Of a DNA stretch of 64,000 nt, positions 7,232 to 64,000 are shown in pieces; the stretch's first letter is position 1; each line of letters begins with the position of its first letter. The stretch is from NCBI RefSeq assembly GCF_008704395.1, contig NZ_CP023695.1, forward strand, positions 806,001 through 870,000. The letters are read 5' to 3'. Under the pieces are notes generated by a model. That model had not been told where the DNA came from. It did not search any database and worked only from the letters and a program-made list of their open reading frames with translations. The translations under genes and the position numbers were made by a program. Source of the stretch: Streptomyces alboniger. Its GTDB lineage: Bacteria; Actinomycetota; Actinomycetes; Streptomycetales; Streptomycetaceae.

Positions 7232-8508
7232 GAGCGCGGCCTCCTCCCCCGCCGGGCCGACACGCGCGCCGCCACCGGAGCGCGGTCACGGCAGGCAGCG
7301 GCGTAGGCGGCGAGCAGCGACGCCTGCGAGTTGCGCCAGGAGAGCTGCCCGCTGATCCGCTCCTGGCCGATCTTCCCCATCCGGGCCCGCTTCTGTGGAT
7401 CGTCGAGGAGCTGCGCGATGAGTTCCGCGAACGCGGCCTCGTCGTTGGCGGGCGCGTAGAGGGCGGCATCCCCGGCGGAGACGCGTGCCTCCCGGAGGTC
7501 GAACGAGACGATCGGGCGGCCCATCGCCATGTACTCAAGGACTTTGTTCATGGTCGACACGTCGTTGAGGGGGTTGCGCGGGTCGGGAGAGAGGCACACG
7601 TCCGCGGTGGACAGGTAGCGCACCAGGTCGGCGTCCGGGACGCGCCCGGTGAACTGCACCTGCTCATCGAGTCCGAGCCGCCGGGCCAGCCGCACCATCG
7701 CGTCGAAGGCGTCACCGGCGCCGACGAACACCGCGTGCCAGTCGGTCCGGCCGAGTTCGTCGCGCAGCTTCGCGAGGGACCGCAAGGCGTAGTCGACGCC
7801 GTCCTGGGGTCCCATGACGCCGAGGTAGCACAGCAGATGGGGCTTGCCGCGCTTCAAGTCCGTTTCGGGCGGCACCGGTTGGAACCGGTCGGTCGCGGGC
7901 GCGCTGCGCACCACGAAGACGTCGTCCGGTCGTCGGCCGCCACGGCGCACCGCGACGTCCCGGTAGCTCTCGTTCGTGGCGAGCACGACGTCCGCGGCCC
8001 GATAGGTCAGCCGTTCCAGCGCGCACACGCCGCGGTAGAGCAGATCCTCACCGCGGTCGAAACGGGAGAGGTACAGCTCCGGTACCAGGTCGTGCTGGTC
8101 GAAGACGAACCGCGCGCCGCGCCGCTTCAGCCACAGCGCGGGCAGGAACAGCAGGTCGGGCGGGTTGCAGGCGTGGACCACGTCGACCGGTCCGACCTTG
8201 CGGGCCAGCCGGGCCGTGTGCCACAACGCCGATCCGTACTCCCGCACATAGCCGGCCGGACCTCCGGTGGCCGCGCGCAGCGGGTAGCGGTGGATCCGCA
8301 CCCCGTCGATCTCCGCCTCCGGTTCCGTGTCGCGCGTACTCCCTCGGGGGCAGATGACGTGCACCTCCCAGCCCGCGTCGCGCAGCGTCGTGCACTCCTG
8401 CCACACGCGCCGGTCGAACGGCACGGACAGGTTCTCCACCAGGATCAGCGCGCGTCGGCCGGGCCCGTCGCCGCCGGATATGTCGTCGAGCGATATGTCA
8501 CCAAGCAA
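7228..8508 (-). CDS. GT4-family glycosyltransferase
   Basis: About 426 residues with the GT-B architecture of family 4. The N-terminal half starts with an ALILVENLSVPFDRRVW strand and turn common to actinomycete EPS transferases. The C-terminal half has VQFTGRVPDADLVRYLSTADVCLSP and a nucleotide-binding segment, VLEYMAMGRPIVSFD. It probably adds one sugar to the lipid-linked repeat unit on the cytoplasmic face. The proposed TTG start at 8508 overlaps the end of the preceding dehydrogenase gene by 11 bp. No strong ribosome site is seen, so the start may differ by a few codons. The donor sugar cannot be told from the sequence. Confidence 0.85.
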   Translation of the reverse strand: MLGDISLDDISGGDGPGRRALILVENLSVPFDRRVWQECTTLRDAGWEVHVICPRGSTRDTEPEAEIDGVRIHRYPLRAATGGPAGYVREYGSALWHTARLARKVGPVDVVHACNPPDLLFLPALWLKRRGARFVFDQHDLVPELYLSRFDRGEDLLYRGVCALERLTYRAADVVLATNESYRDVAVRRGGRRPDDVFVVRSAPATDRFQPVPPETDLKRGKPHLLCYLGVMGPQDGVDYALRSLAKLRDELGRTDWHAVFVGAGDAFDAMVRLARRLGLDEQVQFTGRVPDADLVRYLSTADVCLSPDPRNPLNDVSTMNKVLEYMAMGRPIVSFDLREARVSAGDAALYAPANDEAAFAELIAQLLDDPQKRARMGKIGQERISGQLSWRNSQASLLAAYAAACRDRAPVAARVSARRGRRPRS

Positions 8509-61021: not shown

Positions 61022-61323
61022 TTGACTGTACCCGTCTGCCCCGCATGCTCCACATGATCTCCATGCGAACCCCTGCCCAACGGTTGATCACTGCACTAAC
61101 TCGCAGGCCAGTGACGGTTATTACTCATTCTTTGGCAAGAATTTTCTCTGCTGCCGAACCTTAATGTGATGGTAAAGTAGTGGACATGACAGCCGATCAG
61201 GCTGTGTCCGGGGCGACGCGAAGTCCGCTGCCACAGCGGCCCGCGCCGCCCCACTGTCACCATCGACCCGACCACACCGCGTCCCGGCACCAGCCGAGGA
61301 GACGCAGGAGGCAGGCCACCACC
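61022..61323. promoter_or_regulatory. AT-rich divergent promoter region, SulP and carbonic anhydrase
   Basis: About 300 bp between the SulP gene and the carbonic anhydrase gene. The part from about 61080 to 61180 is distinctly AT-richer than its surroundings. TAAAGT lies near 61173-61178 and could be the -10 for the carbonic anhydrase transcript. The frame from ATG 61186 is in frame with the anhydrase but has no ribosome site and is more likely a leader. No other gene is seen. Confidence 0.5.
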
Positions 61324-61965
61324 ATGAAGTCCCTGATCGACAACGCCCGTTCGTTCGCCGCGACGCACGTCGCGGATCCCCGGAACGCCGCATCCTTCGA
61401 GGCCCTCGGGGCCGGGCAGTCCCCCGAAGCACTGTTCGTCACATGCTCCGACTCGCGCGTCGTCCCGTCCCTCATCACCGGAGCGCGCCCCGGCGAACTC
61501 TTCGAACTCCGTACGGCGGGCAACGTCGTACCCCCTTACCCCTCCGAGGGTCACCCGGACCGCGCAGGCCACCCCATGAGCGAGGCGGCCACCATCGAGT
61601 ACGCGGTCCGCGTGCTCGGCGTCCGCGACATCGTCGTCTGCGGACACTCGCACTGCGGCGCGGTGGGCGCCCTGGTGCGGGGCGAAGACCTGTCGGCCGT
61701 CCCGGCCGTACGCGACTGGCTGGAGCACTCCGTCGCTCCCGACGCCGCCCTGCGCACCCTCGCCCCGGCCACGCCGGACGTGGCGGAGGCCGTACAGACG
61801 CATGTGCTCGCCCAGTTGGAGAGGCTCCGGGAGTACCCCTGCGTCAGCGAGCGGACAGCCGACGGCTCGCTCACCCTGCACGCCTGGTACTACGAAGTGC
61901 ACACCGGCGTCGTCTCCGCCCACCGTCCGTCGTCCGACGGCCGCGCGGCGTTCGGTCCGCTGTGA
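61324..61965 (+). CDS. Beta-class carbonic anhydrase
   Basis: A 213-residue enzyme. Zinc ligands and catalytic residues are Cys41, Asp43 and Arg45 in CSDSR, and His108 and Cys111 in GHSHCGAV. It interconverts CO2 and bicarbonate. ATG 61324 follows GAGGCAGG. Genes for SulP transporters lie on both sides, so it forms a bicarbonate-handling unit with the transporter 54 bp downstream. It is likely cytoplasmic. Confidence 0.94.
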   Translation: MKSLIDNARSFAATHVADPRNAASFEALGAGQSPEALFVTCSDSRVVPSLITGARPGELFELRTAGNVVPPYPSEGHPDRAGHPMSEAATIEYAVRVLGVRDIVVCGHSHCGAVGALVRGEDLSAVPAVRDWLEHSVAPDAALRTLAPATPDVAEAVQTHVLAQLERLREYPCVSERTADGSLTLHAWYYEVHTGVVSAHRPSSDGRAAFGPL

Positions 61966-62019
61966 GGACCGTCGCGCTCCTCCGCCCGGCCCGCTCCGAC
62001 GACAGGACTCCCCACCCTC

Positions 62020-63591
62020 ATGTCCTCCTTCCTCTCTTCCTCCCTCGCTCATTTCCGCCCGCTGCGTGAGCCCGGCGTCCTGCGCCAGGACATCCTCGCC
62101 TCGCTCGTCGTCTTCCTGGTCGCCTTGCCGTTGTGCGTCGGCGTGGCGGTCGCCTCGGGTGTGCCGGCCGAACTGGGCCTGGTCACCGGCATCGTCGGCG
62201 GTCTCGTCGTCGGCTTCCTGCCGGGCAGCGCCCTCCAGGTCAGCGGGCCCGCGGCCGGCCTGACCGTGCTCGTCTTCGAGGCGGTACAGGAGTTCGGGCT
62301 CGGCATGCTCGGCGCGATCGTGCTGCTGACCGGCGCGCTCCAGATCACCCTCGGCCTGCTGCGCTGCGGCCGGTGGTTCCGTGCGATATCCGTCTCCGTC
62401 GTCCAGGGCATGCTGGCGGGCATCGGACTCGTACTGATCCTCGGTCAGCTGTACACCATGGCCGGGGCCAAGCAGCCCCGCTCCGGGATCGACAAGATCG
62501 CCGGACTGCCCGGACTGTTCGCCGACATCGCGAGCGACAGCGCTTCGCTGACCGCCGCGGCCGTCGGCCTCGGCACCATCGCGGTCCTCGTGCTCTGGCC
62601 GAAGCTGCCCGCCGCCGTGCGTGTGGTGCCCGCCCCGCTGGCCGCCGTCGCGCTGGCCACCGCCGTCGTCGCCGGGTTCGGCCTGGACGTGGCGAACGTC
62701 TCGGTACGGGGCCTGGTCGACGCCGTGCAGCCGCCGGGGCTCGGTGACCTGGCGGAGCTGGGCAGCGTGGCGGTGCTCGGCACCGTCCTCGCGTTCACCC
62801 TGATCGCGTCCGCCGAGTCGCTGTTCAGCGCGGCGGCCGTGGACCGTATGCACGACGGGCCCCGCACGCACTACGACAAGGAGCTCGTCGCCCAGGGCGT
62901 CGGCAACACGGTGTGCGGCGTGCTCGGCGCACTGCCGATGACCGCGGTCATCGTCCGCAGCTCCGCCAACGTCGCGGCGGGGGCCCGCACCCCGCTCTCG
63001 CGCATCCTGCACGGCGCGTGGCTGCTGCTGTTCGCCGTGCTGCTGCCCACCGCGCTCGGCATCATCCCGCTGGCCGCGCTCGCCGGCGTCCTGGTGCACG
63101 CGGGCTGCAAGCTGATCCCCGTCAAGGAGATCGTCCCGCTCGCCCGCGCCCACCGCGGCGAGGCCTTCGTGCTGGCCGCCACGGCGATCGCCATCCTGGT
63201 GACCAACATGTTCGAGGGCGTGGTGCTCGGCCTGATCCTCGCCGTGGTCAAGTCCGCCTGGGAGACCTCCCATGTGCACGTGGACGTACGGGAACTGCCC
63301 GGCGGCCGGCAGATCGTGACCCTCACCGGCAACGCCACGTTCCTGCGGCTGCCCCGCATCCTGGAGACGCTGGAGGCCCTGCCCAAGGACCGGCCCATAG
63401 AGCTGGACCTGACCGTGGTGCGCCACCTGGACCACGCCTGCCGCACGACGCTGGAGAACTGGGCGTTGCGGCACAACGACAGCGGCACGGAAGCGGTCCG
63501 GATGCGGACGCTGCCAGTGGCGGTCGCCCCGGCCGCCGGGCCTGCCGCGGCCGAGGAGCCCGAGCGCGCCGAGGCCCAGGCACGGAGCTGA
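62020..63591 (+). CDS. SulP-family transporter, probable bicarbonate uptake
   Basis: A 523-residue protein with about ten to twelve membrane segments and the SulP block LVVFLVALPLCVGVAVASGVP, split at VAL. The C-terminal STAS-like tail (about 415-500) ends in an acidic, Ala-rich stretch. Its ATG lies 54 bp after the carbonic anhydrase, and the pair is a familiar arrangement in which the transporter imports bicarbonate. It differs clearly from the SulP protein at 59441, so the two are not a recent duplication. Confidence 0.88.
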   Translation: MSSFLSSSLAHFRPLREPGVLRQDILASLVVFLVALPLCVGVAVASGVPAELGLVTGIVGGLVVGFLPGSALQVSGPAAGLTVLVFEAVQEFGLGMLGAIVLLTGALQITLGLLRCGRWFRAISVSVVQGMLAGIGLVLILGQLYTMAGAKQPRSGIDKIAGLPGLFADIASDSASLTAAAVGLGTIAVLVLWPKLPAAVRVVPAPLAAVALATAVVAGFGLDVANVSVRGLVDAVQPPGLGDLAELGSVAVLGTVLAFTLIASAESLFSAAAVDRMHDGPRTHYDKELVAQGVGNTVCGVLGALPMTAVIVRSSANVAAGARTPLSRILHGAWLLLFAVLLPTALGIIPLAALAGVLVHAGCKLIPVKEIVPLARAHRGEAFVLAATAIAILVTNMFEGVVLGLILAVVKSAWETSHVHVDVRELPGGRQIVTLTGNATFLRLPRILETLEALPKDRPIELDLTVVRHLDHACRTTLENWALRHNDSGTEAVRMRTLPVAVAPAAGPAAAEEPERAEAQARS

Positions 63592-63682
63592 CGCTCCTGC
63601 CGTTCCCCCATCCGTCCGGGCACGGCGTTCTGCCTCGCCGTGCCCGGATGTGCTGCATACCCACCACCTATGGAGGTTCACC

Positions 63683-63847
63683 ATGGAACAGCTCATCAAG
63701 CGCATGACGCAGGAGTCCGTCTGGCAGAAGTGGGTCGCCGCCAACTCGGCCGGCGGCGCCACGCAGGCCGCGAAGGACGGCTGCATCAGCGCGACGCCGA
63801 AGAGCGGGTGCATCAGCGCCGCCGGCAAGACCGGCTGCATCTCCTGA
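63683..63847 (+). CDS. 54-residue repeat peptide, candidate RiPP precursor
   Basis: A short gene with a perfect GGAGG 6 bp before ATG 63683. Residues 1-31 look like a leader (MEQLIKRMTQESVWQKWVAA, split here at WQ, then NSAGGATQAAK). The end carries three nine-residue units, DGCISATPK, SGCISAAGK and the truncated TGCIS at the C-terminus, with Cys at 34, 43 and 52 exactly nine apart, and Ser/Thr in each. Leader plus Cys/Ser/Thr-rich repeated core is the plan of a ribosomally made, post-translationally modified peptide (thioether, azole or other). A strong hairpin and another start follow. I recognise no named family. Confidence 0.7.
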   Translation: MEQLIKRMTQESVWQKWVAANSAGGATQAAKDGCISATPKSGCISAAGKTGCIS

Positions 63848-63860
63848 CCGGATGAGCCCC

Positions 63861-63905
63861 GCGGGGCCGCCGCCACGGCCGTACACGCCGTGGCGGCGGC
63901 CCCGC
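63861..63905 (+). terminator. Long perfect hairpin after the repeat peptide
   Basis: A 19-bp perfect stem (63861-63879 with 63887-63905) and a 7-base loop lie 13 bp after the peptide stop. It should act as a terminator or partial attenuator between a highly expressed precursor and a downstream gene. Confidence 0.85.
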
Positions 63906-63965
63906 TCCTTCCAGAGCCCGCGTCGAGAAACCCCTGCCACTCCCCGACCCCGCACCGGAGCCCCC

Positions 63966-64000
63966 TTGAACCCCGTGCCGAGCGCCGACGTCCTGGACCG
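63966..64000 (+). CDS. Start of a downstream gene, cut by the window edge
   Basis: TTG 63966 with GGAG 5 bp upstream begins MNPVPSADVLDR, and the window ends after 11 codons. It follows the repeat peptide and its hairpin on the same strand, where a modifying enzyme would be expected. Too little is visible to name it. Confidence 0.45.
   Translation, partial: MNPVPSADVLD

Follow-up and report, generated by a model that had tools for sequence, protein, structure and literature searches.

Known PaaK-type ligases, cysteine-based peptides and the layout of the locus

Classes of ribosomally made, modified peptides (RiPPs) are defined by their modifying enzymes. Lanthipeptides and other cysteine-based RiPPs have a short precursor with a leader, a core containing Cys and Ser, and a hairpin before the enzyme gene. 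PaaK-type ligases activate carboxylates and are known from small-molecule pathways. ClxA and NatL2, two solved relatives of the ligase described here, act on amino-hydroxybenzoates (structure titles and passages of PMC7204872), and NatL2, according to the same passages, makes an ester directly from the adenylate without CoA (PMC7204872).

We found a small cassette that encodes a leader/core peptide, a PaaK-type ligase and a small protein, g2. Like the lanthipeptides, it has a short precursor with a leader, a core with Cys and Ser, and a hairpin before the enzyme gene. Unlike them, it has no lanthionine synthetase (LanB/C, M, KC, L) among its own genes, its recurrent neighbours or the eight downstream proteins scanned, and no YcaO or radical SAM protein among the recurrent neighbour families or scanned downstream proteins. 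The general kind of product, a RiPP, is known; the pairing of a leader/core peptide with a PaaK-type ligase appears to be new. The open-access literature that we searched (titles, abstract beginnings and best matches) gave no description of the precursor family or of a peptide/PaaK-ligase pairing, and no RiPP use of a PaaK-type ligase. We suggest that the cassette probably represents a new class of ribosomally made, modified peptide.

The window (the whole stretch of DNA analysed, 64,000 nucleotides) is 806001-870000 of one 7.96-Mb single-contig genome, and we continued the sequence past its right end. Its last 320 bases contain a 54-codon gene, then a 19-bp hairpin, then a TTG start. The features, in window coordinates, are:

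63672..63676, plus strand: ribosome-binding site GGAGG of the precursor gene, shortly before the ATG (sequence)
63683..63847, plus strand: precursor peptide gene, 54 aa plus stop (open reading frame; at least 23 homologous loci; 197 proteins at E<=0.01)
63683..63751, plus strand: leader-like part, residues 1-23, MEQLIKRMTQESVWQKWVAANSA (alignment; putative boundary; pattern kept in a second family)
63773..63790, plus strand: core unit 1, KDGCIS (alignment, unit counts)
63800..63817, plus strand: core unit 2, KSGCIS (alignment, unit counts)
63827..63844, plus strand: core unit 3, KTGCIS (alignment, unit counts)
63861..63905, plus strand: perfect hairpin, 19 bp with a 7-nt loop, between the precursor and ligase genes (inverted-repeat search)
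63966..64000 and on to genome base 871723, plus strand: PaaK-like ligase fused to g2, TTG start (L003 1966-3723, 585 aa)

An earlier note on this DNA had described a 54-residue gene with a strong ribosome site, a 19-bp perfect hairpin and a TTG start on the same strand. All of these were confirmed, and the TTG at 63966, with GGAG upstream, opens a gene of 585 codons. The note had also proposed looking to the right for a radical SAM enzyme, lanthionine synthetase, YcaO protein or protease; the extended sequence contained the PaaK-type ligase and g2 instead.

The best inverted repeat in 60 shuffles of the spacer was 8 bp, against 19 bp in the window hairpin, and in 13 of 20 loci the inverted repeat between peptide and ligase was longer than in all 60 shuffles. 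The window hairpin has no T run. It may serve as an attenuator or stabilise RNA, and could plausibly lower expression of the enzyme relative to that of the precursor.

Genes for a carbonic anhydrase and a SulP-type permease lie directly upstream of the precursor gene (window 61180-63591). Both are recurrent neighbour families, the carbonic anhydrase near the cassette in 13/24 loci and the permease in 15/24, at varying places. Just downstream of the cassette, on the minus strand (L003 3861-7865), are stand-alone nonribosomal peptide synthetase (NRPS) genes for adenylation and for condensation, together with a P450 gene, which are not among the recurrent neighbour families.

The precursor peptide family

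Homologues of the precursor were found at 23 or more loci, all titled Streptomyces, in a scan of one genome per species, and a protein search gave the 197 family members listed above. In the window peptide the Cys residues of the three GCIS units are residues 34, 43 and 52, nine apart as the earlier note had stated. When the residues of the peptide were shuffled 200,000 times, no shuffle contained even two GCIS.

We counted core units in 125 precursors (the query, the best 120 of the 197 matches, and four from the second family) using the pattern GC[IVL][SCN]. Gly and Cys are fixed by this pattern. The 369 units found have the consensus K-x-G-C-[IV]-S. Lys stands two before Gly in 365/369 units, the residue after Cys is Ile in 359 and Val in 10, and Ser follows the Ile or Val in 366/369. 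The claim that each unit carries Ser/Thr therefore stood for the Ser after Ile and failed for the residue before Gly, which is Ser or Thr in just 175/369 units; it is the Lys that is conserved instead. Likewise, a Cys-Cys spacing of exactly nine is usual (221/244) but not obligatory, as spacings of 7, 8, 11, 12, 13 and 18 were also seen.

The number of units varies from two to four. Most precursors have three (107/125), six have four, and twelve have two. Among the matches listed, eight of the twelve two-unit precursors are matches with a changed or lost unit. Six changed units are recognisable, with a replaced Cys, Gly or Ser, and four of these six have no Cys. Cys is thus present in 371/375 units (369 strict plus six changed). 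Ser is the last residue of 119/125 precursors, and some precursors run past the last unit, ending CISKG in G390 and CISR in G626 and P0055. The core units have conserved nucleophiles (Lys, Cys and Ser) and, except for the C-terminus, no conserved carboxylate.

The leader is also conserved. Residues M1, E2, L4, I5, M8, W14, W17, A19, N21 and S22 are invariant in 17 aligned sequences, and the spacer between leader and core varies in length. The search for homologues with a conserved leader and a variable repeat count, which had been suggested as a check, thus found both. dN/dS was approximately 0.33 in the leader, 0.44 in the spacer and 0.22 in the core (23 loci, with pairs that are not independent). 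Since all three values are below 0.5, the precursor reading frame behaves as a real gene. The family therefore has the gene-encoded precursor, with a conserved leader and a distinct core, that is expected of a RiPP.

In 16/17 members the leader region (window 63683-63769) matched the Pfam family linalool dehydratase/isomerase below threshold (best E 0.00048).

The ligase, g2 and their co-occurrence with the precursor

The ligase matched no Pfam family. Its best NCBIfam model was the DVU_1553 CoA ligase, at 29.8 bits versus a cut-off of 300. A profile built from 28 ligase sequences found PaaK-type chains as its best matches: 9s3l (3.9e-7; taken as ClxA from the structure title), AjiA1 (2.4e-4), NatL2 (4.8e-4) and PaaK (5.2e-4). 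A fold search with the ligase model gave PaaK (2.1e-14), AjiA1 (8.3e-13), NatL2 (4.1e-12) and ClxA (2.4e-11) among its best matches. These four enzymes act on small acids, and we found none with a ribosomal peptide. In the fold search they show 12-19% identity to the cassette ligase, TM-scores by target of about 0.47-0.64 and rmsd of about 6-14 angstrom; for PaaK the TM-score by target was 0.58 and the rmsd 7.3, and the domain arrangement fits loosely.

The ligase model has a mean pLDDT of 71. Between residues 131 and 390, 23 of 26 ten-residue blocks are at 80-97, and pLDDT is below 50 at residues 58-77 and 110-129. E235, D290, R310 and K398 are invariant in the 28 sequences; we take these to be the adenylation-site residues of the superfamily that contact ATP or the adenylate. 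The usual phosphate-loop consensus of adenylate-forming enzymes is of the SSGTTG type. At that position the ligase has STGTNHARM, in the poorly modelled stretch of residues 58-77. With both the PaaK-type fold and the conserved Glu, Asp, Arg and C-terminal Lys present, the ligase is of PaaK-type relationship and has the usual catalytic residues.

The ligase frame of L013 is cut short, matching 1-358 of 404, owing to a frameshift or a sequencing error. Four plasmid records carry ligase relatives, three of them 26-28% identical over 73% of the query. Two of the plasmid relatives were examined, and both adjoin NRPS genes.

g2 is a small helical protein that is encoded separately in most relatives and fused to the ligase in the window strain and in L007 (2/19 loci holding both genes). 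Modelled alone, it reached a pLDDT of 87.8; within the 585-residue fusion it is poorly modelled. A structural search with the g2 model found no informative structural relative. PF27765 is assigned in the protein database to 119 of the best 120 of 363 g2 homologues, and some homologues, among the matches listed, are named glycine-rich domain-containing protein.

We compared 24 loci, the window's and 23 from the scan, and defined neighbour families from open reading frames of at least 60 aa that passed a GC3 filter. In 21/24 loci the precursor is followed by the PaaK-like gene and its g2 companion, although some of these loci show only the ligase or only g2 owing to the filter or a contig end. 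The other three are two contig ends (L009 and L025) and a relic in S. hiroshimensis (L026). The relic (about 7990-8102) retains three core units and a piece of the leader, straight after the stop of the upstream gene. It has no leader start, and there is no ligase or g2 within 8 kb downstream.

In 150 Streptomyces genomes, we found the ligase in 21 (E<=1e-20), and g2 (E<=1e-12) was present in the same genomes, where "the same" rests on genome labels, which suggest that the three draws of 150 were the same genomes. The precursor model matched 23 (E<=1e-3): those 21, G081, whose contig stops 33 bases beyond the match, and G044, where the match has no Cys unit and is spurious. Co-occurrence gave a Fisher p of about 1e-23 (ignoring lineage dependence). 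In the sets examined, the only precursors without a ligase were those at contig ends and the one relic. Precursor, ligase and g2 strictly co-occur, and the candidate modifying-enzyme gene is thus both adjacent to the precursor and co-inherited with it. Two objections that had been raised in advance, that the downstream gene might be an unrelated housekeeping enzyme and that homologues of the peptide might occur with no enzyme nearby, both failed on these distributions.

The cassette extends beyond Streptomyces. Among 345 genomes of the class, the ligase was found in six, one of which (G390) is outside Streptomyces. g2 was found in 12: the six with the ligase, two without it (G330 and G479), and four others. 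The matches in those four, and at a second place in G390, are weak, partial and g2-like. In 100 genomes of the family of G390 there were ten ligase matches, four of full length and six short and weak. All four full-length ligases (4/4) are preceded by a precursor of two units that keeps the leader pattern, and are followed by g2. On reading, the surroundings of three of the four (L093-L095) consist of genes that look mutually unrelated.

g2 homologues were also found in a second RiPP-type cassette (L070 8394-13745; L071, minus strand, 10131 down to 4778). It combines a 34-residue open reading frame, which has a single Cys, with genes for a g2 homologue and for three enzymes: a HisC-like PLP enzyme, an FAD monooxygenase and a TIGR03975 radical SAM C-methyltransferase. 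In the TIGR03975 clusters of G330 and G479, the g2 homologue (35% identical) lies between the 34-residue frame and the enzymes. The 34-residue frame reads ..AKNCW.DI., in which AKNC resembles AKNGC. These clusters use PLP, FAD and radical SAM enzymes, in contrast to the cassette, and the ligase profile had no match in G330 or G479.

The earlier reading of the locus as a candidate RiPP locus was thus upheld in part: the leader and core, the variable unit count and the strict co-occurrence support it well, and the enzyme types expected were absent from the genes scanned. Across the 24 loci, the recurrent neighbour families included no conserved protease or exporter and no conserved acid-making family, and a Pfam scan found no leader-binding domain in the cassette.

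Proposed chemistry and alternatives

Based on these results we propose, with a probability of roughly 0.45, that this is a RiPP-like three-gene cassette: the ligase would adenylate a carboxylic acid and use it to acylate every KxGC unit, and g2 would be its partner. The first gene would provide a precursor with a leader of about residues 1-23 and two to four K-x-G-C-[IV]-S core units. The PaaK-type ligase would convert a carboxylic acid to an acyl-AMP and move the acyl group to a nucleophile of the unit, not to CoA; we infer that the peptide is its substrate. The Cys thiol would be the likeliest first acceptor, with a possible later transfer to the nearby Lys amine. g2 might act as a compact helical partner in presenting the peptide, or might perform a second reaction at the Lys/Cys motif, and a host protease may release the product from the leader. 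Enzymes of the PaaK type activate carboxylates and the core has no conserved one but the C-terminus; an acid would thus have to be supplied from outside, and acylation of each unit by it is the simplest account. Counting against this reading are the unusual phosphate loop of the ligase, the lack of a conserved acid-making family, protease, exporter or leader-binding domain at the loci compared, the want of an informative structural relative for g2, the weaker g2-like proteins in genomes that lack the ligase, and the six units with a replaced Cys, Gly or Ser. A bolder version is possible, although we hold it to be doubtful: a new RiPP class founded on a PaaK-type ligase plus g2, in which every K-x-G-C-I-S unit receives one outside acid, perhaps an aryl acid, the number of units sets the valency (for example, a three-armed enterobactin-like ligand), and at least one further RiPP type also uses g2 as a partner.

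The C-terminus itself might be the carboxylate that is activated, and then joined to an amine, an amino acid or an internal nucleophile to give a C-terminal extension or macrocycle. PaaK-type enzymes activate carboxylates, the core has no other conserved one, and 119/125 precursors end in Ser. However, the precursors that extend beyond the last unit (CISKG in G390; CISR in G626 and P0055) argue against such a reaction, which would also leave the repetition and conservation of the units unexplained, and we regard it as rather unlikely. The peptide and ligase could also be an ordinary operon, with a ligase that joins a small acid to CoA and a peptide that regulates or scaffolds it without being modified. 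The best HMM is named for a family of CoA ligases (DVU_1553; 29.8 bits, cut-off 300), which is consistent with this. The leader/core layout with its variable unit number, the joint loss of leader start, ligase and g2 in the S. hiroshimensis relic (L026), and the recurrence of a g2 homologue in another RiPP-type cluster are not, and make an ordinary operon improbable.

Conservation of Cys in 371/375 units, together with the common loading of thiols by adenylate-forming enzymes, might indicate that the peptide is a ribosomal carrier that replaces an acyl carrier protein, with Cys thioesters loaded by the ligase and unloaded or modified by g2. This seems improbable, as in the 24 loci no gene family for an acceptor or an assembly line is conserved beside the cassette, and the adenylation, condensation and P450 genes of the window strain are on the other strand and are not recurrent neighbours. 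Least probable, in our estimate, is that the units bind metal, with three aryl-acyl or Cys ligands per peptide forming a chelator. Three units are present in 107/125 precursors, and the solved relatives ClxA and NatL2 act on amino-hydroxybenzoates (in passages of PMC7204872), but two- and four-unit precursors exist, and no siderophore uptake or aryl-acid gene family recurs near the cassette in the 24 loci.

The proposed acylation of the units is open to direct experiment, because the cassette is tiny, about 2 kb, and its parts can all be co-expressed. The cassette is present in 21/150 sampled Streptomyces and in a second actinobacterial family. That g2 recurs in a further RiPP-type cluster gives genome mining a new handle.

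Weaker g2-like proteins are present in genomes without the ligase. By eye, weak relatives (L064-L068 and L076-L081) share a signature like WH..IL.T..Y..C...G.FIHH, and several have a Cys-rich tail at their end (CSQCYQGC, for example). L023 has a second, shortened g2-like open reading frame of 107 residues on the minus strand, 6.2 kb upstream of the peptide.
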